A stretch of DNA of 14,081 nucleotides from Candidatus Omnitrophota bacterium (lineage in GTDB: Bacteria; Omnitrophota; Gorgyraeia; Gorgyraeales; Gorgyraeaceae), in the NCBI GenBank assembly GCA_020057645.1, contig JAGVFL010000142.1:1-14081 (forward strand). The letters run 5' to 3'. Under the pieces are notes generated by a model. That model had not been told where the DNA came from. It did no database searches and saw only the letters and a program-made list of their open reading frames with translations. This document shows positions 3 through 12,994 of the stretch, in pieces (positions within the stretch are counted from its first letter, which is position 1; every line of letters begins with the position of its first letter). A program made the translations under genes and the position numbers.

Positions 3-452
3 ATCCTGAAGGCTGTCAGAAAAGTCAACGAACACCAGAGGCAGATTTTTCTTAAGAAGATAGAAAAAGAAATCTGGATTATAAAGAATAAAACCATCGG
101 CGTTCTGGGACTCGCGTTTAAGCCGAATACAGATGACATGCGTTTTGCCCCTAGTGTGGATATAATAAATTCTTTGATTCACGCGGGCGCCAGGGTCAAG
201 GCCTATGACCCTCAGGCAATGGAAAAGGCAAAGGGCATTTTAAAAGACGTAACTTTTTGCAAAGACTCTTACGAAGCAGCTAATGCTAGCGACGCTCTTT
301 TAATACTTACGGAATGGAATGAGTTTAAGACCGTGAAACTTAGCCGCATAAAAAAGCTATTAAAGCATCCTCTCATAATAGACGGCAGAAATATATTTGA
401 CCCGGTAAAAATGCAAAAACTCGGCTTTAAATACATCTCCATCGGCCGCTAA
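3..452 (+). CDS. ugd: UDP-glucose 6-dehydrogenase, C-terminal part (5' truncated by window edge)
   Basis: The frame is open from base 3, so the gene begins upstream of the window; the ATG at 138 is internal. About 149 C-terminal residues are present. They contain the UDP-binding domain typical of the UDP-glucose/GDP-mannose dehydrogenase family: GVLGLAFKPNTDDMR, then a Rossmann-like stretch with AYDPQA, then LILTEWNEF and IIDGRNIFDP near the end. The family oxidises UDP-glucose to UDP-glucuronate with two NAD+ in the cytoplasm. The catalytic Cys and the NAD-binding domain lie outside the window. LTEWNEF and the NTDDMR form favour UDP-glucose dehydrogenase over the UDP-HexNAc type, which is present separately at 2806. 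A decarboxylase at 6157 could use its product to make UDP-xylose. The stop codon opens palindromic repeat A1. Confidence 0.9.
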   Translation: MLKAVRKVNEHQRQIFLKKIEKEIWIIKNKTIGVLGLAFKPNTDDMRFAPSVDIINSLIHAGARVKAYDPQAMEKAKGILKDVTFCKDSYEAANASDALLILTEWNEFKTVKLSRIKKLLKHPLIIDGRNIFDPVKMQKLGFKYISIGR

Positions 453-486
453 TGTTACACTCTGACAATGTCAAAGTGTAAACTTA
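450..486. repeat. Palindromic repeat A1
   Basis: This is an 18-nt inverted repeat around a single central base (468): arms 450-467 and 469-486, with three mismatched pairs. The inner arm TTACACTCTGACA (455-467) faces TGTCAAAGTGTAA (469-481) with one mismatch. The left arm begins exactly at the ugd stop codon TAA. It is the most degenerate of the three A copies (others at 960 and 2763) and fills most of the gap before the RmlC-like gene. Confidence 0.85.
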
Positions 487-505
487 CGTTACATAGAAAA
501 GGCAT

Positions 506-952
506 ATGATAAAAGACGTAGAGATTAAAAAACTTAAGATAATCCCTGACGATCGCGGCAGGCTCATGGAAATCCTCAGGTCTGACGAGCCTATTTTCGA
601 GAAATTCGGACAGGTCTACATGACTACCGCGTTTCCGGGCGTAGCCAAGGCGTGGCATTATCATAAATTGCAGGACGATCATTTTACGTGCATATCAGGC
701 GTGATGCGCCTGGCTTTATACGACAGCCGCGAGGATTCGCCTACGTATAAAGAAGTCAATGATTTTACAGTTTCTCTCGATAATCCTATACTCGTTAAAA
801 TACCAAAACTTGTATATCATGGTTTTAAATGCACTAGCGATAAAGAGGCCATGGTCATTAACGTCCCGACAATGCCTTATAATTACAAGACTCCGGACGA
901 ATACCGCTTGGACGCGTTTGACAATGATATACCGTATGATTGGAGCAAGTAA
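506..952 (+). CDS. rfbC: dTDP-4-dehydrorhamnose 3,5-epimerase-like cupin protein
   Basis: This 148-residue protein of the RmlC/dTDP-sugar epimerase cupin family probably epimerises C3 and/or C5 of a dTDP-4-keto-6-deoxyhexose. Visible family marks are DDRGRL (15-20), AKAWHYHKLQDDHF (47-60, the His-rich strand that holds the catalytic base region), IPKLVYHGF (99-107), and a C-terminal segment with YNYKTPDEYRLD and PYDW, like the E-x-x-I-x-W end of RmlC. It is shorter than classical RmlC (about 180 residues) and has WHYH where RmlC has RGLHYQ. Exact specificity (3,5- versus 3-epimerase, or an isomerase such as FdtA) is therefore open. The ATG at 506 follows a weak AAGG only 3 nt upstream. Its place directly before rmlA and rmlB supports a dTDP-sugar role. 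Confidence 0.78.
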   Translation: MIKDVEIKKLKIIPDDRGRLMEILRSDEPIFEKFGQVYMTTAFPGVAKAWHYHKLQDDHFTCISGVMRLALYDSREDSPTYKEVNDFTVSLDNPILVKIPKLVYHGFKCTSDKEAMVINVPTMPYNYKTPDEYRLDAFDNDIPYDWSK

Positions 953-959
953 TAATTCG

Positions 960-996
960 TTAGTTGACACTCTGACAATGTCAGAGTGTCAACTAA
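960..996. repeat. Palindromic repeat A2
   Basis: This is a perfect 18-bp inverted repeat around base 978: arms TTAGTTGACACTCTGACA (960-977) and its exact reverse complement (979-996). It shares the ACACTCTGACA core with A1 and A3. Compared with A3, its outer arm differs at three positions and all three changes are matched in the opposite arm. It lies between the RmlC-like gene and the rmlA ribosome binding site. Confidence 0.92.
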
Positions 997-1007
997 GCTG
1001 CGATAAT

Positions 1008-1014
1008 GAGGTGA
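1008..1014 (+). promoter_or_regulatory. Ribosome binding site of rfbA
   Basis: GAGGTGA lies 3 nt before the ATG at 1018 and fixes that start. It is one of the clearer Shine-Dalgarno sites in the operon and sits 11 nt after the A2 hairpin. Confidence 0.7.
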
Positions 1015-1017
1015 GAC

Positions 1018-1770
1018 ATGAAAGGTGTTATTTTAGCTGGAGGATTAGGTAAGCGTCTTGAGCCGCTTACGCGTATAACCAATAAGCATCTTTTGCCCGT
1101 ATACGGCAAACCCATGATATATTATCCGATCCAGGCCTTGGTGGACGCGGGTATAAAAGACATTCTCATAGTTACAGGCGGTAACCACGCGGGCGAGTTT
1201 TTACGCCTCCTGGGCAATGGCGCGGAATTCGGGCTCAAGGCCATAAATTATACCTACCAGAAGGGCGAAGGCGGCATTGCTGAAGCGCTCAAGCTAGCGG
1301 AACATTTTAGCGATAATGATAAAACTGTGGTCATCCTGGGAGATAACCTCATTGAAAAATCAATAAAGCGTTATGTCCGGGATTTTGCCAAACAGCCTAA
1401 AGGCGCGAAAATTTTACTAAAAAAAGTAGATGACCCTGAGAGATTCGGCGTGGCTGAAGTAAAAGGTAACCGCATAATTAAGATAGTGGAAAAACCAAAA
1501 CTTCCAAAATCAAATTACGCTGTTACGGGCATTTACATGTATGATAAAAAGGTCTTTGATATAGCCAAGGCCTTAAAACCTTCTAACAGGGGCGAACTTG
1601 AAATTACAGACGTGAATAACGAATATATAAAGCGCGGGGAAATGACATTCTCGATCCTTGACGGCTGGTGGTCTGATTGCGGGACGCACGAGGCTCTATT
1701 ACGCGCGAACAACCTGGTAGCAAAAGCAGAGACGTCATTGCGAGGCCGTAGGCCGAAGCAATCTCTATAG
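1018..1770 (+). CDS. rfbA: Glucose-1-phosphate thymidylyltransferase RmlA
   Basis: It makes dTDP-glucose from dTTP and glucose-1-phosphate, the entry step of dTDP-rhamnose and related 6-deoxy-sugars. Evidence from sequence: the nucleotidyltransferase signature GGLGKRLEPLT (8-18), LLPVYGKPMIYYP (25-37), QKGEGGIAEAL (81-91), LGDN (107-110, metal-binding Asp), EKP (158-160), GELEITDVN (192-200) and GWWSDCGT (216-223). At 250 residues it is of the shorter RmlA type and lacks the roughly 40-residue C-terminal extension of enterobacterial RmlA. The last 11 residues (240-250) and the stop codon are encoded by palindromic repeat D1; the native domain ends near residue 238. It lies between an RmlC-like gene and rmlB. 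Confidence 0.93.
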   Translation: MKGVILAGGLGKRLEPLTRITNKHLLPVYGKPMIYYPIQALVDAGIKDILIVTGGNHAGEFLRLLGNGAEFGLKAINYTYQKGEGGIAEALKLAEHFSDNDKTVVILGDNLIEKSIKRYVRDFAKQPKGAKILLKKVDDPERFGVAEVKGNRIIKIVEKPKLPKSNYAVTGIYMYDKKVFDIAKALKPSNRGELEITDVNNEYIKRGEMTFSILDGWWSDCGTHEALLRANNLVAKAETSLRGRRPKQSL

Positions 1771-1795
1771 ATTGCTTCGCTTCGCTCGCAATGAC
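1734..1795. repeat. Palindromic repeat D1, overlapping the 3' end of rfbA
   Basis: Outer arms GTCATTGCGAG (1734-1744) and CTCGCAATGAC (1785-1795) are exact reverse complements. Inner arms CGAAGCAATCT (1754-1764) and AGATTGCTTCG (1769-1779) close on a CTAT loop. The left half also carries GGCCGTAGGCC (1744-1754), which the right half lacks. The GTCATTGCGAG...CAATCT pattern resembles widespread bacterial palindromic elements, including the Rickettsia palindromic element type known to sit inside genes. Here it provides the last codons and stop of rfbA. Confidence 0.88.
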
Positions 1796-1799
1796 ATAT

Positions 1800-1805
1800 T
1801 ATAAT
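1800..1805 (+). promoter_or_regulatory. Possible -10 box for a leaderless rfbB transcript
   Basis: TATAAT lies 6 nt before the rfbB ATG, the same spacing as in the stronger promoter at 8702. No Shine-Dalgarno precedes this ATG. A convincing -35 is missing: 17 nt upstream is TCGCTT, inside repeat D1. The box may be a chance match in AT-rich sequence. Confidence 0.3.
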
Positions 1806-1811
1806 TAAATT

Positions 1812-2765
1812 ATGAAACTTTTAGTAACAGGCGGATGTGGGTTTATAGGCTCTAATTTTATAAAGCGCATGTTTAAAACACACCCTGCCTATAAAATTGT
1901 AAACCTGGATAAACTCACATACTGCGGGAATCCCGAGAATCTTAGAGATATTGAAAGAGATTTGCGCTACACTTTTATAAAAGGCGACATCTGCGATAGA
2001 AAGATTGTGGATAAGGCGATAAATGGTTGCGATGCAGTTATCAATTTCGCGGCAGAATCGCACGTGGACCGTTCCATAGAAGACGCGTCAGCTTTTATCC
2101 GCACAAATATCCATGGCGTGTACACGCTTTTGGAATCTGCCAAAAAACATAATATTAAGAGATTCATTCAAATCTCGACTGATGAGACCTACGGCAGTAT
2201 CAGAAAAGGTTCTTTTAAGGAAACCAGCCTTCTCCATCCTAATAGCCCGTATTCAGCTGCAAAGGCAGGAGGGGATCATCTGGCACTAGCATATTATACG
2301 ACATTTAAACTGCCTGTTATCGTGACTCGGAGCAGCAATAACTTCGGGCCATACCAGTATCCGGAAAAGGTCATCCCGCTTTTTATCACGAATCTATTGG
2401 CAAATAAAAAGGTCCCGCTTTACGGCGATGGCATGAATGTCCGGGACTGGCTGTATGTCTTTGATAATTGCTCGGCCATTGACCTTATTCTTCATAAAGG
2501 CAAGATAGGAGAGATATATAATATAGGCGGCAGTTTTGAAATCCCGAATATAGAACTTACAAAGATTATATTGAAATTTTTAGGCAAAACAGATAAAATG
2601 ATAAACTATGTTTCTGACAGGATGGGCCACGACAGGCGGTATTCCCTTGATTCCACTAAGGTCAGGAAGCTGGGCTGGAAACCGTCCAAAAGCTTTGATA
2701 CAGCCATAAAAGAAACAATAAACTGGTATAAGGCCAACACCACCTGGTGGCAAAAACTAAAATAA
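1812..2765 (+). CDS. rfbB: dTDP-glucose 4,6-dehydratase RmlB
   Basis: This short-chain dehydrogenase/reductase family enzyme converts dTDP-glucose to dTDP-4-keto-6-deoxyglucose using bound NAD+. Its 317 residues carry the NAD motif GGCGFIG (7-13), AAESHVDRSI (80-89), the catalytic STDETYG segment (122-128, T123-D124-E125), the YxxxK pair Y147/K151 in SPYSAAKAGGDH, RSSNNFGPYQYPEKVIP (173-189) and the substrate segment DRMGHDRRY (269-277). All expected residues are present. The usual DEVYG reads DETYG here. No Shine-Dalgarno is visible before the ATG; the region between repeat D1 and the start is very AT-rich. The stop codon TAA is the first three bases of repeat A3. Confidence 0.94.
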   Translation: MKLLVTGGCGFIGSNFIKRMFKTHPAYKIVNLDKLTYCGNPENLRDIERDLRYTFIKGDICDRKIVDKAINGCDAVINFAAESHVDRSIEDASAFIRTNIHGVYTLLESAKKHNIKRFIQISTDETYGSIRKGSFKETSLLHPNSPYSAAKAGGDHLALAYYTTFKLPVIVTRSSNNFGPYQYPEKVIPLFITNLLANKKVPLYGDGMNVRDWLYVFDNCSAIDLILHKGKIGEIYNIGGSFEIPNIELTKIILKFLGKTDKMINYVSDRMGHDRRYSLDSTKVRKLGWKPSKSFDTAIKETINWYKANTTWWQKLK

Positions 2766-2799
2766 GGTTACACTCTGACATTGTCAGAGTGTAACCTTA
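2763..2799. repeat. Palindromic repeat A3
   Basis: This is a perfect 18-bp inverted repeat around base 2781: arms TAAGGTTACACTCTGACA (2763-2780) and its exact reverse complement (2782-2799). The rfbB stop TAA is the first codon of the left arm, as in A1. It ends 6 nt before the ATG of the next gene, which has no visible Shine-Dalgarno of its own. Confidence 0.93.
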
Positions 2800-2805
2800 C
2801 AACAT

Positions 2806-4113
2806 ATGTTTAATGAGCTGAAGGCGAAAATTGAGAATAAAAAGGCGAATATCGGCATTATAGGCCAGGGTTATGTCGGCCTGCCACTGGCAGTGGAGTT
2901 CGCTAAGGCCGGCTTTAAGGTCACGGGCTTTGACACCGACGATAAAAAGGTCTCGAGCATCAATAAAGGTGTTTCTTATATCCTGGATGTGCCCGCGAAA
3001 GACGTAAAAGACCTTATAAATTCCGGCAAATTAAAAGCTACCACAGATACTAAGCTTCTTAATAAAATGGACGCTATCATTATCTGCGTTCCTACGCCTC
3101 TTCGTAAGACCAAAGAACCTGATATTTCTTATATACTTTCAGCGAGCGAGGCAATAGCCGATAATATTAGAAAAGGCCAGCTCATTATCTTAGAAAGCAC
3201 CACTTATCCCGGCACAACCGAAGAAATCATACTTCCTAAGTTAGAAAGCAGTTCTTTTAAAGTCGGCAAAGACTTCTTCCTGGCATTTTCTCCTGAGAGG
3301 GTGGACCCGGGCAATCTTAAGTATAAAACAAAAGATATTACTAAAATCGTGGGCGGCGTTACGCCTGAATGCACTGAGCTATCCAGGCTTTTATATTTCC
3401 AGGCGATAAAAGAGGTTGTCTCGGTTTCTTCCACCCGCTCGGCTGAGATGGTGAAGCTTCTTGAAAACACATTCCGCAGCGTCAATATAGCCATGGTCAA
3501 TGAACTCGCTCTCATGTGCCATAAAATGAACCTTGATGTCTGGGAGATCATCAATGCCGCGAAGACCAAACCATTCGGCTTCATGCCTTTTTACCCCGGC
3601 CCGGGAATAGGCGGGCACTGCATTCCTCTCGACCCATTATATTTATCCTGGAAAGCGAGACAGCATGGATTTGAGGCGAGGTTTATCGAGCTCGCGGATG
3701 AGATAAATTCTTCCATGCCGCATTATGTGGTGGATAAAATAACTTCTATTTTAAACGAGAAGAAAAAGCCCCTGAAGGGATCGAATATTTTAGTAATAGG
3801 CATAACATATAAAAAAGACATAAATGACGTCAGGGAATCGCCTGGCCTTGAAATCGTGGATTCCCTGATTAAAAAAGACGCTCATGTTCATTGTCATGAC
3901 CCGCTTGTATCCGGATTTGAACTGGACGGAGGGAAAAAGATTACCACTGTTAAACTTACAAAAGAAAGCATCTCTTCAAGCGATCTCGTTGTAATTATCA
4001 CTGACCACTCTGATATTGATTATAAATTTATCGTCGATAATGCGAAGCTGATTTTCGACACTCGTAACGCGTTGAAAAATTTTAAGACCGCGAAAAATAT
4101 AGTTAGATTATAA
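2806..4113 (+). CDS. wbpA: UDP-N-acetyl-hexosamine 6-dehydrogenase (WbpA/TviB type)
   Basis: This is a 435-residue nucleotide-sugar dehydrogenase of the WbpA/WecC/TviB branch, expected to oxidise UDP-GlcNAc (or UDP-ManNAc/GalNAc) to the uronic acid with NAD+. Evidence: NAD-binding GQGYVGLPLA (20-29), CVPTPL (94-99), the conserved FSPERVDPGN stretch, KLLENTFRSVNIAMVNELA (central helix), FYPGPGIGGHCIPLDP with catalytic C272, and a C-terminal UDP-binding domain starting with VIGITYKKDINDVRESP. FYPGPGIGGHCIPLDPLYLSW is the form seen in WbpA and TviB. The adjacent downstream epimerase repeats the tviB-tviC / wbpA-wbpP style pairing. The ATG at 2806 lacks a Shine-Dalgarno and lies 6 nt after the A3 hairpin. 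WecC-type ManNAc specificity is less likely but not excluded. Confidence 0.86.
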   Translation: MFNELKAKIENKKANIGIIGQGYVGLPLAVEFAKAGFKVTGFDTDDKKVSSINKGVSYILDVPAKDVKDLINSGKLKATTDTKLLNKMDAIIICVPTPLRKTKEPDISYILSASEAIADNIRKGQLIILESTTYPGTTEEIILPKLESSSFKVGKDFFLAFSPERVDPGNLKYKTKDITKIVGGVTPECTELSRLLYFQAIKEVVSVSSTRSAEMVKLLENTFRSVNIAMVNELALMCHKMNLDVWEIINAAKTKPFGFMPFYPGPGIGGHCIPLDPLYLSWKARQHGFEARFIELADEINSSMPHYVVDKITSILNEKKKPLKGSNILVIGITYKKDINDVRESPGLEIVDSLIKKDAHVHCHDPLVSGFELDGGKKITTVKLTKESISSSDLVVIITDHSDIDYKFIVDNAKLIFDTRNALKNFKTAKNIVRL

Positions 4114-4114
4114 T

Positions 4115-4139
4115 GGAGTAGCGAAGCGAAGCTTCGCGC
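4115..4139. repeat. Palindromic repeat C1
   Basis: Stem GCGAAGC (4121-4127), loop GAA, GCTTCGC (4131-4137), preceded by GGAGTA. It starts directly after the upstream stop, so the junction reads TAATGGAGTAGCG. The stem differs from C2 and C3 (GCGGAGC/GCTCCGC) by a compensated G-C to A-T change. There is no U tract after it, so it is not a classical intrinsic terminator. Confidence 0.85.
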
Positions 4140-4159
4140 AAAATTAAACAGGAGTTATC

Positions 4160-5089
4160 ATGAAATTTTTAGTAACCGGCGGAGCCGGCTTTATAGGCTC
4201 GCACATAGTGGATGCTTTAGTCGGAAACGGCGATAAGGTAAAAGTAATCGATGATTTTAGCTCCGGACAGATGGAAAACCTGTCAGGTGTTTTAAATAAA
4301 ATAGAGCTCATAAAAGGCGACATAAGAAATAAAGACATTGTCCGGCCTGCGATGGAAGGCGTAGATTATGTGCTTCACCAGGCAGCTTTAAGAAGCGTTC
4401 CAAAATCTCTCGCGAACCCGGAACTTTATAATGATGTCAATATTAACGGCACCTTGAATATTCTTACGCTAGCCAGAGACGCCAAGGTCAAAAGAGTAGT
4501 CATAGCTTCTTCAAGCTCTATCTATGGAGATATAGATAAGTTTCCGGAAAGGGAAGACTTTTTACCCCAGCTTATATCCCCATATGGCCTTACTAAGCTC
4601 GCGGCTGAGTATTATTCCAGGATTTTTTCCAAAATCTACGGTCTTGAGACAGTAAACCTCAGGTATTTCAATGTATTTGGCCCGCGCCAATCTCTTGAGA
4701 ATGAATACGCGGTAGTAATCCCTAAGTTTGTAACATGCATGCTCAGAGACCAGCAGCCGCCTATCCATGGCGACGGCAAGCAAACGCGCGATTTTACATA
4801 CGTAAGTAATATTGTCCATGCCAATATAAAATCAGCTATCACGCCCGGTATAAAATGCGAAGTTTTTAATATTGCCTGCGGCAAGGCTTACAGCGTCCTG
4901 GATATAGTTAAATATGTAAATAAAATTCTTGGTAAAAGCATTTTGCCAAAGTTCGGCCCAATAAGGCTAGGCGACGCCAAACATACGCTTGCGGATATCT
5001 CCCGGGCTAAAAAACTCATCGGCTTTAAACCTGAAATCGGCTTTGAAGAAGGGTTGAAGAAAACCATAGACTACTTTAAAACAAAATAA
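4160..5089 (+). CDS. UDP-HexNAc(A) 4-epimerase-like SDR protein (WbpP/TviC type)
   Basis: This 309-residue extended short-chain dehydrogenase/reductase has an N-terminal NAD motif GGAGFIG (7-13), DDFSSG (31-36), GDIRN (53-57), LHQAALRSVPKS (72-83), SSSSIYGD (117-124), the catalytic Y142/K146 in SPYGLTK, NLRYFNVFGPRQ (166-177) and GDGKQTRDFTYV (204-215). LHQAALxSVP and GDGxQxRDFTYV are typical of UDP-GlcNAc/UDP-GlcNAcA 4-epimerases such as WbpP and TviC. Position directly after the WbpA-type dehydrogenase suggests UDP-GalNAcA production, as in Vi antigen synthesis (inference). It is slightly shorter than WbpP (about 340 residues), so a UDP-glucose/galactose 4-epimerase role remains possible. 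AGGAG (4150-4154) 5 nt before the ATG supports the start. Confidence 0.78.
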   Translation: MKFLVTGGAGFIGSHIVDALVGNGDKVKVIDDFSSGQMENLSGVLNKIELIKGDIRNKDIVRPAMEGVDYVLHQAALRSVPKSLANPELYNDVNINGTLNILTLARDAKVKRVVIASSSSIYGDIDKFPEREDFLPQLISPYGLTKLAAEYYSRIFSKIYGLETVNLRYFNVFGPRQSLENEYAVVIPKFVTCMLRDQQPPIHGDGKQTRDFTYVSNIVHANIKSAITPGIKCEVFNIACGKAYSVLDIVKYVNKILGKSILPKFGPIRLGDAKHTLADISRAKKLIGFKPEIGFEEGLKKTIDYFKTK

Positions 5090-5091
5090 TA

Positions 5092-5126
5092 CACCTACGG
5101 GGTGGCCGCAGGCCTCCCCGTAGGTG
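5092..5126. repeat. Palindromic repeat B1
   Basis: Outer stem CACCTACGGGG (5092-5102) with CCCCGTAGGTG (5116-5126); inner stem GGCC-GCA-GGCC (5104-5114). It is followed by GTGAGGTTCA, shared with B2, which supplies the ribosome binding site of gmd. It begins 2 nt after the preceding stop codon. Confidence 0.92.
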
Positions 5127-5132
5127 GTGAGG
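5126..5132 (+). promoter_or_regulatory. Ribosome binding site of gmd carried by repeat B1
   Basis: GGTGAGG, with its first base in the right arm of B1, lies 5 nt before ATG 5138. It decides the start: the in-frame GTG at 5102 lies in the repeat's left arm and would add 12 residues that no dehydratase has. Confidence 0.7.
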
Positions 5133-5137
5133 TTCAT

Positions 5138-6142
5138 ATGAAAAAAGCTTTAATCACAGGTATCACTGGCCAGGATGGGGCGTATTTATCCAAACTGTTA
5201 GTAGATAAAGGCTATCAGGTCCACGGCATAGTGCGGCGCGTTGCATTGGAAGACCCTGACCACAGGCTTTGGAGGTTGAAACCTTTATTAAAGAAGATAA
5301 AACTTCACGCAGGCTCTTTAGAAAGCTACGCCAGCCTATTTAATATCGTCCAGAAGGTAAAACCTGACGAATGCTACCACCTGGCAGCGCAGAGCTTTGT
5401 GAGTTATTCATTTGAAGATGAGTTCTCTACGATCAATACCAATATCAACGGCACCCTCTTTATGCTTTCAGCCATAAAACACAGGGCTCCTAAATGTAAA
5501 TTTTATTTTGCCGCAAGTTCTGAAATGTTCGGGCATGTAAGGGAAATTCCGCAGACAGAAAATACACCATTCCATCCTCGCTCGCCGTATGGTATTTCTA
5601 AGGTAGCTGGTTTTGAGCTTACGCGCAATTACCGCGAGGCATATAACCTATTTGCTTGTAATGGCATACTTTTTAACCACGAATCTCCCATGAGAGGCTA
5701 TGAGTTTGTAACACGTAAGATCACTCTGGGCGCGGCGCGTATCAAGGCAGGCCTTGCTAATGAATTAAAACTTGGTAATCTGGATGCTAAGCGGGACTGG
5801 GGATTTGCCGGAGATTTTGTTGAGGCCATGTATCTTATGCTGCAGGAGAAAAAGCCCGATGACTATGTAATAGCTACAGGCGAAACCCATACAGTTAAAA
5901 AATTTGTCGAGTTAGCATTCGGTTACGCGGGGCTCGATTGGAAAAAATACGTGAAACAGGATAAAGAGCTTTTCAGGCCTGCTGAAGTAAATCAGCTCAT
6001 AGGAGACTACTCAAAAGCAAAACGCATTTTGGGCTGGAAGCCGAAAGTAAAATTCGAAGAGCTTGTAAAGATGATGGTAGAAGAAGATTTTAAGAGATTA
6101 AAAATCACTGCACCTACGGGGTGGCCGCAGGTCTCCCCGTAG
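5138..6142 (+). CDS. gmd: GDP-mannose 4,6-dehydratase
   Basis: It converts GDP-D-mannose to GDP-4-keto-6-deoxy-D-mannose, precursor of GDP-fucose, GDP-rhamnose or GDP-perosamine. Its 334 residues include [14 protein letters not shown] (4-17; NAD motif GITGQDG), VHGIVRR (28-34), [12 protein letters not shown] (81-92), AASSEMFG (125-132), the catalytic Y151/K155 in [24 protein letters not shown] (179-195), [19 protein letters not shown] (213-231) and a C-terminal [11 protein letters not shown] segment. GxTGQDG and FNHESPRRG are hallmarks of the family; Pro-Met-Arg replaces Pro-Arg-Arg here. Residues 325-334 and the stop codon are encoded by repeat B2; the native end is near residue 323. No Fcl or Rmd reductase is present in the window. 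Confidence 0.93.
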
Positions 6143-6145
6143 GTG
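6111..6145. repeat. Palindromic repeat B2, overlapping the 3' end of gmd
   Basis: Outer stem CACCTACGGGG (6111-6121) with CCCCGTAGGTG (6135-6145), identical to B1; inner GGCC-GCA-GGTC (6123-6133), which keeps pairing as RNA through a G-U. The last ten codons and the TAG stop of gmd (6140-6142) are inside it. It is followed by the same GTGAGGTTCA extension, which gives uxs its ribosome binding site. Confidence 0.92.
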
Positions 6146-6151
6146 GTGAGG
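6145..6151 (+). promoter_or_regulatory. Ribosome binding site of uxs carried by repeat B2
   Basis: GGTGAGG is 5 nt before ATG 6157, with the same geometry as at gmd. It sets the uxs start at 6157 instead of the in-frame GTG at 6121 inside the repeat. Confidence 0.7.
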
Positions 6152-6156
6152 TTCAC

Positions 6157-7083
6157 ATGAAAACAGTTTTAATCACCGGCGGAGCAGGATTTCTCGGCTC
6201 CCACCTATGCGATAGATTTTTGAAAGAAGGCTATAAGGTTATTTGTATGGACAACCTTATAACCGGAAGCCTTGCCAATATTGCTCATCTTGAATCCAAT
6301 CCAAACTTTAAATTCATAAAGCATAATGTATCTGAACATATAGATTTAAAAGACGAGGTTGATCTTGTCTTGCACTTCGCCTCGCCTGCGAGCCCTATTG
6401 ATTATCTGATGCATCCTATACCTACGCTGAAAGTCGGCTCTCTGGGTACGCATAATACGCTTGGCGTGGCAAAGGCTAAAAAGGCAAAATACCTCTTGGC
6501 CTCCACTTCCGAAGTGTACGGCGACCCTAAGGTCAATCCTCAGCCGGAATCTTATTATGGCAATGTAAACTGCGTCGGCCCGCGCGGAGTCTATGACGAG
6601 GCCAAGCGCTTTGCTGAGGCTATTACCATGGCTTACCATAAAGCTCATAGCCTTGATACCAGGATTGTCCGTATTTTTAATACCTACGGCCCCAGAATGC
6701 GTAAAAACGACGGCCGCGTCATACCGAATTTCATAACCCAGGCATTAAAGAATGAGCCTATCACTGTTTACGGCAAAGGCGATCAGACAAGAAGCCTTTG
6801 TTTTGTAACTGACCTTATAGAGGGCATTTTCCGCTTAAGCCAGTCTGATATCCATGATCCTGTAAACATTGGTAATCCGCATGAACTAAAAATCATAGGC
6901 CTGGCAAAGCTTATTATTAAACTTACTGGAAGTAAAAGTAAGATTATTTACAATCCTCTTCCCATAGATGATCCAAAGGTCCGTCAGCCTGATATCTCCA
7001 GGGCCGGGAAACTTCTAAACTGGTCGCCAAAAGTTGAATTGGAAAAAGGTTTAAAAGAAACTATCGAATGGTTCAAAAAATAA
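6157..7083 (+). CDS. uxs: UDP-glucuronate decarboxylase (UDP-xylose synthase)
   Basis: This 308-residue extended SDR is expected to oxidise and decarboxylate UDP-glucuronate to UDP-xylose. Sequence marks: NAD motif GGAGFLG (8-14), DNLITGS (32-38), [11 protein letters not shown] (73-83), STSEVYGDP (116-124), the catalytic Y146/K150 in the UXS signature [11 protein letters not shown] (141-151), [10 protein letters not shown] (172-181), DGRVIPNFI (185-193), [14 protein letters not shown] (208-221) and RQPDISRA (276-283). These follow the plant, animal and bacterial Uxs pattern closely. Ugd at the start of the window would provide its substrate. The stop overlaps the next start as TAATG (7081-7085), suggesting translational coupling to the Wzi-like gene. 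Confidence 0.9.
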
Positions 7084-8666
7084 TGTCATGGAGTAGCGGA
7101 GCGCAGCTCCGCGCCCTTATATTAATTTTATTTTTCGTTCTTTTATCTCCTTGCATTTTGGAAGCATCCCCTTCAGTCGATGTCCCTTTGCGCCACTGGA
7201 GCTACGACGCTATTGAAAAACTCGCGATTATCGGTCTTTGCGACATAGCCGATATAGGCATTCGTCCGGTCTCCCGCATAAAAATGGCTTACATTGTTAA
7301 AACCGCCATTGATAAAGCCCGCGACTACGACAAGGAGTTTGACTGGAACGAGCAGGAATATTTAGAGACTTTATTAAATAAACTTATAGGCGAATTTAGA
7401 GTAGAGCTTGTAGCTATTGGCGTTGAGGTTGCGAGCACCTTTGACCAGCCGCTTCCAAAGAATACAATAAAACTTTTAAGCGGCCTGAAGATCGAAAAGG
7501 TTTATACTAAGCTTGATAAAAATCGCTTGCTCTTTGAAAATAAAGACGGCTGGATCCTGAAAGACGGATTTAACGCCAGAGTCAAGGCTACGGCATGGGC
7601 TAAGTTATCTAATATATGCGCGGTATCTGTAACGCCTGGCATAAGATATTCCAGTGAAGATACAGACGTTAATATAGAAGACGCTCATGTAAGGCTTAAT
7701 CCCACAGGCTGGAATACCGAATACGCTATAGGACGATCTTCCATGTGGTGGGGCCCGGGTTTCCATGGCTCAGTCCTTATGACTGACAATGCATTTCCCA
7801 TGGATACCCTGAGGATTAATAATATCTGGCCTTTCAGGCTTCCATGGGTATTTAAAAAGATGGGAAGATGGAGCGGGACATGGTTTATATCGAGGTTAGA
7901 GAAAAAATTTAACCCTTCTCATCCTATATTTACAGGGTGGAAACTGGACTATATACCGGCGGAATTTTTAAAGTTTGGGGTAGGCCATATCCTTATGTTC
8001 GGCGGCAAAGGCGTTAATATGTATAGCATTCATGATTTTGTAGGCAATAGCTCTCTTTTCTTCAGCTCAGGCGGAGGAGCGGACGATCCTGAAAACCACA
8101 TCATGTCATGGGATGCCCAGCTTTTTTTAAGGCGTATAGACAGATTTTTACCTATTGCCACAGGCGCCAAGCTTTATACAGAATGGGGCGCAGAAGACGA
8201 ATCCAAGAGTATTCCCGTGGATTTTGCGTCTATAACCGGCGCGTATTTTACAGATGTTTTTAAAATCCCTGGTTTTGACGTAAAAGCTGAAATCGCCAGG
8301 TTTCATAAGGTTTTTTATACGCATTTTAAGTATATATCTGGTTTTACCCATAGAGGTAACTTTATAGGCCATCACGCAGGCGGGGATTCGGAGGATATGG
8401 CGCTTAGCGCTATATTTAATTTTCCGGATGAATATAAATTCAGCGCCACTTTTAGCCGTATGCGTAGAGGCCTTACCAAGGCCCTTATAGAAACCACCAA
8501 TCAAATAAGATTAGAATTTAGTTTAACTAATGCCTTAAATATGTATAATATAAAAGATGTAGAAGTAACGCTATTCTACGAGCTTGACGATATTACAAAC
8601 TTTGAAAACACCGGCTCCACAGCCAATAACCACATCATCGGCGCAGAAATCACCAGGAAGTTTTAA
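7083..8666 (+). CDS. wzi: Wzi-like capsule assembly outer-membrane protein
   Basis: This 527-residue predicted outer-membrane beta-barrel resembles the Wzi / capsule assembly family, which helps attach or organise capsule at the cell surface. A signal peptide covers residues 1-28 (hydrophobic core 12-24, likely cleavage after ILEA). Next comes an SLH-like N-terminal segment, PLRHWSYDAIEKLAIIGLCD, with PVSRIKMAY. The Wzi signature is GRSSMWWGPGFHGSVLMTDN (217-236), followed by alternating-strand sequence and a terminal Phe, as in barrel proteins. The start at 7083 overlaps the uxs stop; an in-frame ATG at 7068 inside uxs is the alternative. There is no Shine-Dalgarno. Residues 3-11, the signal-peptide n-region with its only Arg, are encoded by repeat C2. 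Confidence 0.84.
   Translation: MSWSSGAQLRALILILFFVLLSPCILEASPSVDVPLRHWSYDAIEKLAIIGLCDIADIGIRPVSRIKMAYIVKTAIDKARDYDKEFDWNEQEYLETLLNKLIGEFRVELVAIGVEVASTFDQPLPKNTIKLLSGLKIEKVYTKLDKNRLLFENKDGWILKDGFNARVKATAWAKLSNICAVSVTPGIRYSSEDTDVNIEDAHVRLNPTGWNTEYAIGRSSMWWGPGFHGSVLMTDNAFPMDTLRINNIWPFRLPWVFKKMGRWSGTWFISRLEKKFNPSHPIFTGWKLDYIPAEFLKFGVGHILMFGGKGVNMYSIHDFVGNSSLFFSSGGGADDPENHIMSWDAQLFLRRIDRFLPIATGAKLYTEWGAEDESKSIPVDFASITGAYFTDVFKIPGFDVKAEIARFHKVFYTHFKYISGFTHRGNFIGHHAGGDSEDMALSAIFNFPDEYKFSATFSRMRRGLTKALIETTNQIRLEFSLTNALNMYNIKDVEVTLFYELDDITNFENTGSTANNHIIGAEITRKF
7090..7115. repeat. Palindromic repeat C2 inside the wzi signal-peptide coding region
   Basis: GGAGTA followed by stem GCGGAGC (7096-7102), loop GCA, GCTCCGC (7106-7112), then GCC. 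It is translated as residues 3-11 of the Wzi-like protein. It is the only C copy read as protein; the others follow stop codons directly. Confidence 0.85.
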
Positions 8667-8678
8667 AAGATCTCCACC

Positions 8679-8707
8679 TTGTATTTTCCATATATTTGAT
8701 ATATAAT
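8679..8707 (+). promoter_or_regulatory. Sigma70-type promoter of the toxin-antitoxin-like pair
   Basis: -35 TTGTAT (8679-8684), 17-nt spacer, -10 TATAAT (8702-8707). Transcription would start at about 8714, the A of the ATG, implying a leaderless mRNA. No Shine-Dalgarno is present upstream of that ATG, in agreement. Confidence 0.65.
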
Positions 8708-8713
8708 TTATTT

Positions 8714-8974
8714 ATGAAAAATATTATACTGCCTAAGGAATTTAAAGAATATTTCTGGGATTGCGATTTTAAGGCATTAAAATTTGCTGAATATCATGAA
8801 TTTATTCTCGGCCGCCTGCTGAAACTTGGCGGGATAAAAGCTATTATCTGGATATACAGGCATTTTTCCAGGAAAGACATACATGGTTATTTAAAGGAAA
8901 GAGGCCGAAAGGATCTTGATGCCAGAAGCTATTTGTTTTGGTCTAAGGTATTAAACTACAAAGAGTTATGGTAA
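8714..8974 (+). CDS. DUF6922-like putative antitoxin
   Basis: This 86-residue protein resembles the small DUF6922-type proteins encoded directly upstream of AbiEii-family nucleotidyltransferases. The supporting features are an aromatic N-terminal FKEYFWDCDFKAL, a central EFILGRLLKLGGIKAIIWIYRHF, and a C-terminal RKDLDARSYLFWSKVLN. It is probably the antitoxin or regulator of the pair; there is no recognisable helix-turn-helix that I would defend. The ATG at 8714 is preferred over the in-frame TTG at 8696, which falls inside the promoter. Its stop overlaps the next gene's start by 7 nt, so the two are co-translated. Family recall is from sequence pattern only. Confidence 0.7.
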   Translation: MKNIILPKEFKEYFWDCDFKALKFAEYHEFILGRLLKLGGIKAIIWIYRHFSRKDIHGYLKERGRKDLDARSYLFWSKVLNYKELW

Positions 8975-9615
8975 AAGCCCTTCATTATGAAATATTAGAT
9001 CGAAAAAGAAAAAAAATACTCCCAAAACTTATTTTTCTAAAGGATAGGTTTTATCTGGCAGGAGGCACGGCATTAGCCCTCCAGATAGGCCACAGGACTT
9101 CTATAGATTTTGATTATTTTACAAATAAGCCATTTGATAACGCTCGCGTATTTCAGGAATTTGAGTCGATCTTTCCTGACAGCCGCATAGAAAAAACCCA
9201 GGACATAAAGGATACATTGAGTTTTATCCTGGAGCCGGGCATTAAATTTTCTTTGTTCAATATTAAAGATAGGCCCGTATGTCCTATAGCGAGGGCTGAG
9301 TATTTTAATTTGCTTGGCGAATTAGACATAGCGGCAATGAAAATTATCGCTTTGACGCGTGCGGCATACCGCGATTATGTGGACATGTATTTTATCTTAA
9401 AAAACCATGATTTAAATGATATAATCTCTCTGGCAAAGAAGAAATACAAAAACTTTGACGAAGGCATATACCTTAAATGCCTGCTGTCATATACTGATGT
9501 GGAAATAGCGCCTATAAAATTTATGCCGGGCTTTAAAAAGGATAAAAAAGAAATATTCTCCCATATCGAAAACCATGTAAAAACCTACATTAAGAATAAA
9601 CTCCCTGCCCCTTGA
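8968..9615 (+). CDS. AbiEii/AbiGii-type nucleotidyltransferase (putative toxin)
   Basis: This 215-residue nucleotidyltransferase-fold protein of the AbiEii / DUF1814 family is the toxin component of type IV-like toxin-antitoxin and phage-abortive systems. Family members transfer nucleotides to RNA such as tRNA. The catalytic motif is FYLAGGTALALQIGHRTSIDFDYF (28-51): GGTAL, the HR pair (42-43), and D47/D49 as metal ligands. The second family motif, AAMKIIALTRAAYRDYVDMYFI (122-143), has K125, R135-D136 and D139. All key residues are intact, so an active enzyme is likely. It overlaps the upstream antitoxin-like gene by 7 nt. It is shorter than lactococcal AbiEii (about 300 residues), so its target and antiviral role are unproven. 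Confidence 0.86.
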   Translation: MVKALHYEILDRKRKKILPKLIFLKDRFYLAGGTALALQIGHRTSIDFDYFTNKPFDNARVFQEFESIFPDSRIEKTQDIKDTLSFILEPGIKFSLFNIKDRPVCPIARAEYFNLLGELDIAAMKIIALTRAAYRDYVDMYFILKNHDLNDIISLAKKKYKNFDEGIYLKCLLSYTDVEIAPIKFMPGFKKDKKEIFSHIENHVKTYIKNKLPAP

Positions 9616-9633
9616 CAACCTCCAAAATTCCTA

Positions 9634-9662
9634 TTGCATTTATTTTTCCCATACGCTATAAT
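9634..9662 (+). promoter_or_regulatory. Sigma70-type promoter of the SLBB export gene
   Basis: -35 TTGCAT (9634-9639), 17-nt spacer, -10 TATAAT (9657-9662) within CGCTATAATCA. Predicted transcription starts near 9669, leaving a 5' leader of about 190 nt that holds repeats B3 and D2. Confidence 0.65.
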
Positions 9663-9684
9663 CATTTTAATCATATTTAAAATA

Positions 9685-9743
9685 CACCTGCGAGGTGGCC
9701 GACCTGTCCCGAGCGAAACCGAGGGAAGGCCTCCTCGCAGGTG
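9685..9743. repeat. Palindromic repeat B3 with enlarged loop
   Basis: Outer stem CACCTGCGAGG (9685-9695) with CCTCGCAGGTG (9733-9743); inner GGCC (9697-9700) with GGCC (9728-9731). Relative to B1 and B2 the stem has two base-pair exchanges, both compensated. The 3-nt loop of B1 is replaced by about 27 nt containing its own TCCC...GGGA pairing. The typical GTGAGGTT extension follows, here not near a start codon. Confidence 0.88.
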
Positions 9744-9760
9744 GTGAGGTTTAAAGCATA

Positions 9761-9846
9761 TGTCATTGCGAGTCCGTCTAAGGCACCGAAGCGACCGAGG
9801 ACGAAATGTCCGAGGAAGTGCCGAGTCCTCCGGACGAGGCCAATCT
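9761..9846. repeat. Palindromic repeat D2, long imperfect hairpin
   Basis: It begins TGTCATTGCGAG and ends CAATCT, the ends of the left half of D1, but has a different interior. Nested pairings: ATTG (9765-9768) with CAAT (9841-9844), GTCCG (9772-9776) with CGGAC (9831-9835), GGCAC (9782-9786) with GTGCC (9818-9822), GGAC (9799-9802) with GTCC (9808-9811) over a GAAAT loop. It ends 4 nt before the Shine-Dalgarno of the SLBB gene. Confidence 0.75.
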
Positions 9847-9849
9847 AAC

Positions 9850-9855
9850 AGGAGG
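9850..9855 (+). promoter_or_regulatory. Strong ribosome binding site of the SLBB gene
   Basis: A perfect AGGAGG lies 6 nt before ATG 9862, the best Shine-Dalgarno in the window. Two upstream segments can pair with it: CCTCCT (9730-9735) in B3 and CCTCC (9827-9831) in D2. Confidence 0.85.
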
Positions 9856-9861
9856 TTTTAA

Positions 9862-12717
9862 ATGTCCAAAAGATTTTCTTTAATCAATCTTTCTATTGCC
9901 ATAATATTTCTACTAACCACTATCTTCCCCTCCGGCGCATTTTCATATTCTAATGCCGGAGATACTTTGGAACGCGACTTCGTAGACGAGTCTAAGGGTT
10001 CTGATATAGTATCTTTCAAAAAGATCCGCTGCCCAAACTGCCTTATGGAATTTTTCTACATCCCTGGTAAGGACAGCCCCCATTCGCATTGGGTCAAGTA
10101 TGAGGTCAAGGAAGAATTAAATGCAAATAAAGAAGAAGGCCTGAATATCGAAGACAGCTTAAAAGATAATCAGGATAAGATAAAAGAATTAAAGAAACAA
10201 GACAAACTTTTTGGACTTTTTAAGCTTGGGAGCGAAACCAAAGATAAAAATGTTAAAAAAGAAGAAGCTGTTAAAACAGCTTTAACTACCCAGAAATTAG
10301 AAGGCCAGGTTGGATATAAGCTTCGCCAACAGCTTACCTGCCCTTACGATGGTTTTGTGTTTTTCCCTGAAGGAGATTTATTAGATCAGGCTAAATTTAA
10401 ACCCAGCCTGGCTTTATTCCAGGAACCATCCAATATAGAATCCAGTTTTTCTAAGTCTATTTCTTTTGGGGCATCGAAGGATTTGAAACAATTTGGTTAT
10501 GAGTTGTTTCTAGTTGATGAGAAGTCTGAAAAAGAAGAAGAAAAAAAGGAAGCCTCAACCAATAAGTCTTTAGAGTCACTTGCAACGCTAGGTATGTTAA
10601 AGTCTGCTCTTGGCCCAGCAGCTCAAGGCTCTATGCTTTCTTTCCAGGGTACAGGTTCACAGGATACGGCAGTTGTTCCTGTAAGCTCTGATTATATTGT
10701 TGGCCCGGGAGATACACTTCTTATTAATATCTGGGGTAGCGTCCAGGAAAGCTTCCCTGTAGAAGTTGACAGGGAAGGTAAAATCATGCTCCCTAAGTCA
10801 GGGCCTCTTTATATTTGGGGCATGAAGCTTAAAGAAGCCGAGACCCGTATTACCCAGCGCCTCAATGAGTTCTATACTAATTTCAATGTAGATGTTTCTA
10901 TGGGTAAACTTAGAAATATTCGTGTTTTTATAATGGGTGAGACTAAAAAACCGGGAGCATATTTAATAAGTTCTCAGTCTAATATATTCCAGGCGCTATA
11001 CATAGCAGGCGGGCCTACTAAAGTAGGTTCCATGCGTAGAATTAAGGTAATTAGTTCTGACAGCAAAACAAGAGAAGTAGATCTTTATCAGTTTTTGTTA
11101 AAAGGTGAGACAGGAGATAATTCCGTTATCCAGTCAGGCGATACCATATTTATTCCACCTATAGGAGATGTAGTAGCTATTTCTGGTAACGTCAAACGTC
11201 CTGGAATATATGAAACCAAAGGCGACATTTCTTTAAGTGACCTTATAGAATTTGCAGGCGGCATTACTCCTACAGGAAATCTCCAGCATCTTCAGGTAGA
11301 GCGCATTAAAGATAATGAACGCCGTGTAATAGTGGATATAGAATTTAAAAATAATAGTTTTAAAGATATAAATCTTCGTAACGGCGATATGGTTATAGTT
11401 TCTCCCATAGTCAGGCTTAAACATAATTTTGTAACCATACTCGGTAACGTAGAAAACCCTGGCGATTATGGCCTTAAAGAAGATATGTCTATTAAAGATA
11501 TTATGCAGATGGCCAAGGGCCTTATGCCTGGCACTTATCTATCCAGAGCTGAGATTGCGCGTGTCTCCAAAGATCGTTCTCGCGAAATCATTCCTATAAA
11601 CCTGGATAAGATGATGATGGGCGGTAAAGACGAAGATATCTCTTTAAAAGAATGGGATATACTTTTAGTTTACTCAGAAGCAGAGGCCTCAGCTCCGAGT
11701 TTTGTAGAAATAGACGGCTCTGTCAATAAGCCCGGTAAATACGAGCTCACGCCGAATATGAAAATTTCCGACCTTATTTTCAGGGCAGGAGGCGTTACTT
11801 CAAAAGATTTTATTAGAGGCGCTGAGTTATTTCATATTGTTCCGGGAGAACAGCCTGTCGTGAGAGAGATCGGCGTTAAAAGGATTTTCGGCTCAAATAT
11901 TCAAATAGATAAAGATATCATTCTCCAGGCCGGAGATACACTTTTTGTGAAGCGTGAACCCAAGCTTACTGAGAAAAAGATGATTACTGTGAGGGGCGAA
12001 GTAAGGTTCCCGGGCATCTATCCGATAATCGAAGGTGAAAGGCTCAGCGATTTAATAGTTCGCGCCGGCGGATACACCAGTGACGCGTTTTTACCCGGAG
12101 CCGTATTCACAAGAAAATCCATCAAAGAAGTCCAGGAAAAGATGAGAGCGCGTTTTATGGAGAAGGAACAACGCACTATCATGGAAGAACAGCAGGCAAT
12201 GTTATTAAGGGCAGGGAGTTCTGCAAGCGCAGATGCTATAACCCAATCTCTGAGGGCCAGAATGGACATGATGGAGATAATTTCAGGCGCTGATATAGAA
12301 GGCCGCATGGTTATATCGCTTTTACCGCTGGAGCAGTTAAAACACTCTAAATACAATATCCCCCTTGAAGACGGAGATTCTATTACTATACCGGAGTCGC
12401 CTTCAGCAGTTACAGTAATAGGCAGTGTCAATAATCCTACATCAGTTCCTTTTGAAATAGGTAAGGGTATAGACTATTACATCCGGAGAACAGGCGGCCT
12501 TACGAAGCACGCTGATAAAACCGGCATATACGTTATGCGCGCCAACGGCGAAGCTATTAATAAATTCATGATGACGAAGTTTGTAGAGCAAGGCGATACT
12601 ATAGTCATACCCCAGGAATTTAAATACTGGACTCCTCCCGGACAACTTCTTAAAGATACGGTCGAAGTCTTATCCCGCATAGCAATCGGAGTCGGCATCA
12701 TCGCCGCCCTTAACTAA
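9862..12717 (+). CDS. SLBB-domain polysaccharide export protein (Wza-like) with N-terminal zinc-ribbon-like insert
   Basis: This 951-residue protein carries an N-terminal signal peptide (1-28, cleavage after GAFS) and probably acts as the periplasmic/outer-membrane export channel for polysaccharide. Residues 57-60 (CPNC) and 160-163 (CPYD) form a split zinc-knuckle-like pair separated by a charged, Lys/Glu-rich linker. The polysaccharide export domain begins at DYIVGPGDTLLINIWG (277-292). Six SLBB-like repeats follow, starting near 354, 437, 523, 614, 707 and 849, each with the pattern GxVxxPGxY...L..AGG. A charged coiled segment (about 755-800) interrupts the last two. The C-terminus, LLKDTVEVLSRIAIGVGIIAALN, is a hydrophobic helix that may insert in the outer membrane as in Wza. 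It is far longer than Wza (about 380 residues) and resembles the multi-SLBB proteins of exopolysaccharide loci. It has its own promoter and a strong ribosome binding site. Confidence 0.93.
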   Translation: MSKRFSLINLSIAIIFLLTTIFPSGAFSYSNAGDTLERDFVDESKGSDIVSFKKIRCPNCLMEFFYIPGKDSPHSHWVKYEVKEELNANKEEGLNIEDSLKDNQDKIKELKKQDKLFGLFKLGSETKDKNVKKEEAVKTALTTQKLEGQVGYKLRQQLTCPYDGFVFFPEGDLLDQAKFKPSLALFQEPSNIESSFSKSISFGASKDLKQFGYELFLVDEKSEKEEEKKEASTNKSLESLATLGMLKSALGPAAQGSMLSFQGTGSQDTAVVPVSSDYIVGPGDTLLINIWGSVQESFPVEVDREGKIMLPKSGPLYIWGMKLKEAETRITQRLNEFYTNFNVDVSMGKLRNIRVFIMGETKKPGAYLISSQSNIFQALYIAGGPTKVGSMRRIKVISSDSKTREVDLYQFLLKGETGDNSVIQSGDTIFIPPIGDVVAISGNVKRPGIYETKGDISLSDLIEFAGGITPTGNLQHLQVERIKDNERRVIVDIEFKNNSFKDINLRNGDMVIVSPIVRLKHNFVTILGNVENPGDYGLKEDMSIKDIMQMAKGLMPGTYLSRAEIARVSKDRSREIIPINLDKMMMGGKDEDISLKEWDILLVYSEAEASAPSFVEIDGSVNKPGKYELTPNMKISDLIFRAGGVTSKDFIRGAELFHIVPGEQPVVREIGVKRIFGSNIQIDKDIILQAGDTLFVKREPKLTEKKMITVRGEVRFPGIYPIIEGERLSDLIVRAGGYTSDAFLPGAVFTRKSIKEVQEKMRARFMEKEQRTIMEEQQAMLLRAGSSASADAITQSLRARMDMMEIISGADIEGRMVISLLPLEQLKHSKYNIPLEDGDSITIPESPSAVTVIGSVNNPTSVPFEIGKGIDYYIRRTGGLTKHADKTGIYVMRANGEAINKFMMTKFVEQGDTIVIPQEFKYWTPPGQLLKDTVEVLSRIAIGVGIIAALN

Positions 12718-12718
12718 T

Positions 12719-12744
12719 GGAGTAGCGGAGCGAAGCTCCGCGCC
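12719..12744. repeat. Palindromic repeat C3
   Basis: GGAGTA, then stem GCGGAGC (12725-12731), loop GAA, GCTCCGC (12735-12741), then GCC. It starts one base after the SLBB stop, again as TAATGGAGTAGCG. It may end or stabilise the transcript, but no U tract follows. Confidence 0.88.
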
Positions 12745-12749
12745 TATTT

Positions 12750-12770
12750 GGAGTAGCGAAGCTCCGCGCC
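12750..12770. repeat. Palindromic repeat C4, shortened copy
   Basis: It matches C3 except for loss of GGAGC from the left arm, which removes most of the stem and leaves GGAG...CTCC. It lies 5 nt after C3 in the same orientation, forming a tandem pair, probably a decayed duplicate. Confidence 0.8.
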
Positions 12771-12800
12771 TATGATGTTATCGTGAGGGGTTAGCTGAGA

Positions 12801-12835
12801 CTCCTACGGGGTGGCCGTAGGCCTCCCCGTAGGTG
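12801..12835. repeat. Palindromic repeat B4
   Basis: Outer stem CTCCTACGGGG (12801-12811) with CCCCGTAGGTG (12825-12835), one mismatch; inner GGCCGTAGGCC (12813-12823). It lacks the GTGAGGTT extension of B1-B3 and does not precede a start codon. With C3 and C4 it makes up the first half of the gap after the SLBB gene. Confidence 0.88.
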
Positions 12836-12868
12836 GCTTGATTGTTGTGATCTCCCCTAAATTTTCCC

Positions 12869-12897: not shown

Positions 12898-12910
12898 CAA
12901 GTTTATTATT

Positions 12911-12929: not shown

Positions 12930-12938
12930 TAAAACAAT

Positions 12939-12966: not shown

Positions 12967-12994
12967 TGTAACAGCAAAACATAAAGGATAAGAT

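Follow-up and report, generated by a model that had tools for sequence, protein, structure and literature searches.

Palindromic repeats at the gene junctions of an Omnitrophota sugar operon are probably mobile elements of the REP/RAYT kind

Why should each of the eight gene junctions of one bacterial operon carry a single palindromic repeat, when the repeats belong to several unrelated families? This question is raised by a sugar operon of a Candidatus Omnitrophota bacterium on contig JAGVFL010000142.1 (14,081 nucleotides), herein called the window, which is one entire contig of an assembly (GCA_020057645.1) of 916,614 bases in 184 contigs, 62% complete. A preliminary description had reported one repeat at every junction from ugd to wzi, and the present analysis confirmed all eight at their places, in the order A, A, D, A, C, B, B and C (the junctions are numbered J1 to J8 in that order; family letters A-D come from the preliminary description, and E, F and G were assigned in the present analysis). 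The same description had offered two explanations, namely selection for a hairpin at each intercistronic position and an insertion mechanism that targets stop/start regions. Judging from sequence comparison, the repeats are probably non-autonomous mobile palindromes resembling repetitive extragenic palindromic (REP) elements and REPINs, inserted independently in each lineage at gene junctions and persisting where they are least harmful.

The first line of evidence is the same operon in relatives, the closest named ones (L023-L028 and L074) having 88-95% protein identity in the query gene; the junctions were read by eye, some of the relatives' genes were located by tblastn pieces, and the wzi query, read out of frame, was used solely to find the position of wzi. 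In L023 (UBA10183), six of the eight junctions (J1, J2, J3, J5, J6 and J7) are empty, with gaps of at most 14 nt; J4, with an A-type element, and J8, with one assigned to C from its first bases, are occupied. L025 (CG1_02_40_15) is occupied at 8/8 junctions, by E, E, D, A, E, E, E and a B-like element, five of them thus being family E. Between these extremes, L024 carries A at J1, J4 and J5 (3/5), with J2 and J3 empty; in L027, six junctions hold E, J3 shows nothing clear and J6 carries a RelB/ParE-type toxin-antitoxin pair; the empty junctions are J1, J4, J6 and J7 in L030 and J1, J5 and J6 in L031; and L074 covers three junctions, of which J3 and J5 are empty and the third holds a gene. Different families have therefore been gained or lost at orthologous junctions, and the simplest history of the operon is that tight junctions were repeatedly filled by the family active in each lineage. 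The D element at J3 and the A element at J4, common to the window genome and L025, may be shared by descent.

Second, the comparison was extended genome-wide in samples of four genomes. Among 195 pairwise conserved co-directional junctions, both members were occupied in 31, one only in 82 and neither in 82, and the state of a junction in one genome was no significant predictor of its state in the other (odds ratio 1.55, p = 0.17). When the pairs were taken in both directions and any insert was counted, empty junctions were at least 22 nt longer in the other genome for 25/119 overlapping gene pairs, and for 15/49, 12/32, 10/26 and 6/25 pairs with gaps of 0-7, 8-15, 16-29 and 30-59 nt, respectively. 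Thus, overlapping genes, too, become separated. Clean empty/filled pairs were found, such as a 33-nt C element behind TAA in G010 versus TAA-TC-ATG in G006, and an F element in G003 versus an empty site in the window genome. Junctions filled in both genomes held in some pairs one family, perhaps by descent, and in other pairs unrelated families, as judged by eye.

Third, the window genome was sampled as 40 contigs in number order (C1-C40; 248,847 bases), in which inverted repeats of score at least 12 occurred at 0.034 per kb of coding and 3.36 per kb of non-coding sequence. A more sensitive rule then counted a junction as occupied when it held an inverted repeat of score at least 9 or a known family, although inverted-repeat scoring misses weak elements. 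With the window contig set aside (39 contigs), 60/180 co-directional junctions were occupied (33%) and 120/180 empty, compared with 7/176 occupied controls, which were same-length stretches inside genes. The corresponding figures were 57/141 (40%; controls 8/140) for G003, 104/319 (33%; 15/316) for G010 and 41/256 (16%; 9/253) for G006, so that 16-40% of junctions were occupied in the four genomes and 3-6% of gene-internal controls. Where the preliminary description had looked to a genome-wide count of occupied and empty junctions, this count in samples gave more occupied junctions than gene-internal stretches, with most junctions empty. The run of eight had P = 0.006 by shuffling in the 40-contig sample including the window, which had been singled out for that very run; without the window the longest run was five (P = 0.19). 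Two elements per gap were rare in short gaps and present in long ones. At a score of at least 13, 82 elements were found at 572 tight junctions, 21 at 149 middle ones and 27 at 187 with at least 80 nt left over, which is 0.14 each, and the density per residual kb fell from 23 (tight) to 2.8 and 0.7 (long gaps); at a score of at least 11, the three classes had 0.17, 0.24 and 0.28 elements per junction and densities of 26, 4.9 and 1.3. These figures indicate that elements follow junctions more than free length.

Fourth, one palindrome family is linked to a transposase gene. A search for the Y1_Tnp domain gave 13 distinct genomes with 1 to 5 matches each, and 33 of the 36 distinct matches were examined, all but three in G002, G006 and G009; several of these loci have little sequence on one side. 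A subfamily of about 295 amino acids, herein termed RAYT-A after the REP-associated tyrosine transposases (RAYTs), comprises L002 (in the window genome), L175, L184, L185, L189, L190 and L191. At all seven loci, A-type palindromes lie no more than about 30 nt away on every side that could be read, L002 having one such side; six were recognised by pattern, and L190, together with the near left palindrome of L175, by an inverted-repeat scan. At the other Y1_Tnp loci, an A-type palindrome within 450 nt was found in 0/26 (Fisher p = 6e-6 counting 6/7, or 2e-7 counting 7/7), with a two-mismatch match at the edge of the L001 gene and another 980 nt from L196 left uncounted. Pfam assigned the Y1_Tnp domain in L175 and L002, and four RAYT-A proteins (L175, L185, L191 and L002) contain NHIH/NHFH and AxYFNKKYxRRGHVF motifs, which we take to be the HUH motif and the catalytic-tyrosine region of a RAYT, respectively. 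Other palindromes lie on both sides of Y1_Tnp loci L171, L179, L180, L186, L192 and L195, those of L179 and L180 being of F type. For family C, a link to a RAYT is no more than suggested: L192 lies between palindromes that end in ATGGAGTAGC, and a C-like one is found next to L187. For family B, a single weak similarity was seen, a tail-like AACCACCTCAACC on one side of L196, and no flanking of Y1_Tnp by D or E was seen by eye at the loci examined.

The properties of family A might explain why junctions accept it. Its palindrome has 37 nt, TAAGGTTACACTCTGACA-W-TGTCAGAGTGTAACCTTA, the arms showing a G/C variant and the centre being a single nucleotide. With up to three mismatches it was found at 75 places in the window genome (1-2 for a reversed-pattern control). 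Its distribution is patchy, with 87 places in G010 and no copies found in G001, G002 and G004, of the same genus. Of 131 matches, in a count whose window-genome sample includes 20 contigs chosen for A, 105 were intergenic, 14 at gene ends, 6 coding-internal and 6 at contig edges. The ends read TAA in 35/54 and TTA in 33/54 copies; since the two are about equally frequent, they probably belong to the element. Stop codons occur in three frames in both orientations. In the window genome, the upstream stop lies within the element in 22/54 co-directional copies, a set that includes a few weak matches distant from any stop, at offsets of -28, -12, -4 and +1, the distances to the stop clustering at discrete values; by symmetry, the offset of +1 would be the element's own TAA serving as stop. 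An element with stops in all frames in either orientation often supplies the upstream gene's own stop, which would explain its tolerance there. The wider A-superfamily with 5-nt inner arms had 51 copies in the window genome, 47 in G003, 34 in G005, 56 in G006, 50 in G007, 99 in G010, 10 in G012, 9 in G011, 4 in G008 and 2 in G014, with none in the remaining 29 of 39 genomes and none in controls; with 6-nt inner arms, among 13 genomes, the copies were 164 in G007, 30 in G010, 22 in G006 and 6 in G002.

Herein, we propose the following sequence of events. Several unrelated palindrome families would insert independently in each lineage, either among the final codons of the preceding gene or in the space from its stop to the following ribosome-binding site; every family probably owes its spread to a RAYT-type (Y1, IS200-like) transposase of its own. 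Such inserts would persist at co-directional junctions, where they are least harmful and most copies may be near-neutral. Family A, with stops in every frame and orientation, would terminate the upstream reading frame after a few codons at most, and the gene that follows would retain its ribosome-binding site or receive one, as family B might supply. The run of eight would then be the upper tail of an occupancy of about one in three, in an operon that seemingly accepts inserts readily.

Several observations weigh against this proposal. No clear target-site duplications were seen by eye at the compared junctions. The number of RAYTs bears no relation to the repeat load, G006, with the lowest occupancy, having five Y1_Tnp matches and the window genome (62% complete) two. 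G005 and G012 have A-superfamily copies (34 and 10), yet RAYT-A was not found there, and G002 has RAYT-A, but no copies with 5-nt and six with 6-nt inner arms. Unlike classical REPs, family A is without a GTAG (or GTGG) head and has mostly TAA/TTA ends, GTAG being present in F. Both the window genome and L025 are filled at 8/8 junctions, exceeding the 16-40% of the sampled genomes, and this leaves some feature of the operon unexplained. Finally, plain free space would give a gentler fall in density than the one from 23 to 0.7 elements per residual kb, so that tolerance may be joined by a benefit or an insertion preference.

Such a preference leads to the strongest alternative, in which stop codons, or the ends of translated genes, are a target of the insertion machinery itself and the placement does not come from selection sorting the inserts. 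It is a possible explanation that we consider unlikely on balance. The equal number of elements per junction in the three gap classes at a score of at least 13 is consistent with it, although the number increases with the gap at a score of at least 11. Family A lies close to stop codons, 99/114 co-directional copies starting within 20 nt of one, partly because the gaps are short; in gaps of at least 100 nt, where 4.2 would be expected from uniform placement, 10/22 were within 20 nt of the stop (p = 0.0035). This excess disappears with the last 70 nt before the start barred (9.3 expected, p = 0.44), though family F retains it under the same bar (4/7, p = 0.015), and generic inverted repeats in gaps with at least 80 nt left over are not stop-proximal (6/38, against 4.2 under uniform placement and 12.1 with 70 nt barred). 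The best hint of targeting comes from family E, which abuts TAG at offset 0 in 13/20 stop-near matches of a relaxed pattern and in 8/15 of a strict one. The relaxed pattern has 125 matches in total, many of them chance matches, and among the 13 are several operon junctions of L025, L027 and L031 at which the placement was first noticed. Purifying selection, moreover, yields much of the same picture. As for the second explanation of the preliminary description, an insertion process that ends up at stop/start regions is supported by the clean empty/filled pairs, the differing families per junction and the link between A and its RAYT, with targeting itself hinted at rather than proven. A broader version, in which RAYT-type systems of Omnitrophota insert palindromes at translation-termination sites, several families having converged on them and elements with stops in all frames being adapted to them, is a speculation to which we give a similarly low weight. 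If it were true, insertions would land again and again at each stop codon of an operon, and the hairpins between genes would turn over from species to species.

Selection that keeps a hairpin at each junction, for processing, stabilising or uncoupling of transcripts and whichever family provides it, appears improbable. Its appeal is that unrelated families occupy the same junctions in the window genome and in L025 and that the RNA hairpins are strong: with short flanks and compared with shuffles, seven of the eight elements fold with z = -2.6 to -8.4, the weak fold being that of C1 (z -1.95; an equally good fold in 8/200 shuffles). In addition, no terminator-like site is present on the transcribed strand at the eight elements, and Escherichia coli REPs within 15 nt of a stop were reported in one study (PMC12306157) to affect translation. 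Against it, six of the eight junctions of the same operon are empty in L023, two-thirds of the window-genome junctions outside the window contig (120/180) are empty, and co-occupancy between genomes is not significant. Empty and multiply filled junctions also stand side by side, the four junctions past the operon, read on the sequence, holding no element (8666/8714), none (8974/8968, overlapping), two (9615-9862) and three (12717-12995). The regularity of exactly one element per junction therefore applies within the operon and ends at its border, and the selection for a hairpin that the preliminary description had inferred from it was not borne out. A reading of the palindromes as ordinary host attenuators or intrinsic terminators, which hairpins right behind stop codons might suggest, was rejected as very improbable, since 12 terminator-like sites in 400-13000 compare with a shuffle mean of 11.6, none lies on the plus strand at the eight elements and two on the minus strand (at A3 and B1), and the elements form repeated families with orthologous empty sites.

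Returning to mobile palindromes tolerated at gene ends, the individual elements can be described junction by junction; the gene calls are from a custom caller, certain starts of which are wrong (5102 instead of 5138, and 7158 given for wzi). A1 (450-487) is an imperfect A-family palindrome that opens with the stop codon of ugd (TAA 450-452), and its junction is empty in L023, L030 and L031. A2 (960-996), with 18-bp arms, begins 7 nt past the stop of the dTDP-sugar-isomerase-like gene, at a junction empty in L023 and L024. D1 (1734-1795) joins two D halves in inverted orientation (GTCATTGCGAG..GAAGCAATCT and the reverse complement); the rmlA-like reading frame terminates within it, at 1770, giving a C-terminal extension relative to L023, and a D copy is found in L025 too, with L023, L024 and L074 empty. 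A3 (2763-2799) is a perfect A palindrome, TAA 2763-2765 being the stop of the rmlB-like gene, and A-superfamily copies are also present at this junction in L023, L024 and L025. C1 (4111-4139, plus strand) is a C element (GGAGTAGCGAAGCGAAGCTTCGCGC) right behind the TAA of the UDP-sugar dehydrogenase gene; the junction is empty in L023, L031 and L074 and holds A in L024 and E in L025 and L027. B1 (5092-5134, plus strand) is a B palindrome with a tail, GGTGAGGTT, which appears to occupy the expected ribosome-binding-site position of the next gene, and L023, L029, L030 and L031 are empty here. The second B copy, B2 (6111-6153, plus strand), contains the end of the upstream dehydratase-like reading frame, at 6142, again a C-terminal extension relative to L023; the same tail precedes ATG 6157, and the junction is without an element in L023 and L030. 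C2 (7086-7114, plus strand) lies within the first codons of wzi, the start of which is ATG 7083, overlapping the stop of the preceding gene (TAATG). With this start, C2 is not intergenic and codes for part of the Wzi N-terminus; L023 has the first bases of a C element there too. Relative to the preliminary description, the points that change are the wzi start, with C2 inside that gene, D1 as an inverted pair, and B2, which begins within the upstream reading frame.

Past the operon, a further B element with an enlarged loop (9685-9751, plus strand) lies in the gap preceding the polysaccharide-export gene, with a D-like repeat seen by eye behind it (9762-9848), and two C elements and one B element (12715-12835, plus strand) lie behind that gene. 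Among known RNA families, the sole match was RF01089 (minus strand, 9622-9742; E 0.21), which is below its cut-off and was taken as chance. In family F, GTA precedes the GGG arm in 49/58 matches, both strands counted, so that a GTAG head is present. Orientation relative to transcription was 6:2 for B, 4:0 for C, 12:15 for the E left end, 12:3 for the E right end and 10:7 for D, numbers too few or inconsistent. In the D family of the window genome and relatives, the outer arms GTCATTGCGAG and GAAGCAATCT are fixed by the search pattern, and the inner hairpin is very variable, apparently paired in most copies. Samples of G010 (L125-L144) contain an additional recurrent junction element beginning TTCCTTAGCCAATTT, with 16 pattern matches and varied inner hairpins.

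Pfam assignments supported the reading of the genes as a sugar operon: two UDP-sugar dehydrogenase genes, the first partial, a dTDP-sugar-isomerase-like protein, a nucleotidyl transferase, Wzi, a polysaccharide export protein and four proteins of the GDP-mannose-dehydratase/epimerase type. Larger insertions were also observed in relatives. The toxin-antitoxin pair of L027 (10934-11590), at J6 (the B1 site in the window), is perhaps next to a family E remnant, and a two-ORF cassette of similar appearance, by eye, is present at J6 of L028. Longer insertions, apparently with their own coding sequence by eye, are found at J4 (the A3 site in the window) in L031 (7379-8685) and in L074; the beginning of that in L031 resembles, by eye, the reading frame at 12995-14080 of the window, named by eye as AAA-type ATPase-like, which has the orientation of the operon and runs off the contig end. 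The UDP-sugar dehydrogenases of L025 (3902-6661) and L024 (5336-7219) contain an in-frame intein (PF14890), that of L025 also a LAGLIDADG-like domain; tblastn spacing indicates an insert at the same place in L028 and L074, and no intein was seen in the window copy.

The locus offers a natural experiment: among species whose versions of these proteins are about 90% alike, the junctions of one and the same operon are completely, partly or hardly at all occupied, and the occupying families are unrelated. It bears on why REPs lie just past stop codons in many bacteria, whether by target choice, tolerance or use, and it cautions that a hairpin at every junction need not mean regulation. The pattern is real; it is ordinary in kind, being one of mobile palindromes tolerated or targeted at gene ends, and unusually clear in degree.

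RAYT genes flanked by inverted REPs have been described (PMC2817692), and the Omnitrophota elements resemble that system in being short palindromes with tens of copies per genome, mostly extragenic, with a Y1_Tnp gene bordered by a palindrome family of its own and different RAYTs going with different palindromes; they differ from it in that several families occur together in one small genome. REPs near 3' ends, GTAG REPs that supply TAG stops, and RAYT-like genes flanked by other repeats, termed TIRtrons, have also been reported (PMC3733652). The present RAYT-like genes flanked by other repeats are like these TIRtron/TIRYT elements; unlike in that account, orthologous junctions are compared here across species, the same places are filled by unrelated families, and family A carries TAA/TGA stops in all frames. 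REPINs were defined as two REPs about 71 or 110 bp apart (PMC3116915), and two inverted halves likewise form one hairpin unit in family A and, as an inverted pair, in D1, although the A palindrome is compact, with 37 nt in all and a single nucleotide at its centre. In E. coli, 446 of 4,072 REP elements lie within 15 nt of an upstream stop by that study's tool (PMC12306157), a subset to which the stop-proximal copies of family A correspond, although in family A these make up 99/114 co-directional copies (within 20 nt), partly a matter of short gaps. Among the papers listed in searches for palindromic repeats or REPs in Omnitrophota, none on this subject appeared, and the REP-related ones listed contain no mention of the phylum. 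Within that literature, the REP-RAYT kind of system is already known, and the host group, the families and the comparison of junctions across species appear to be new.

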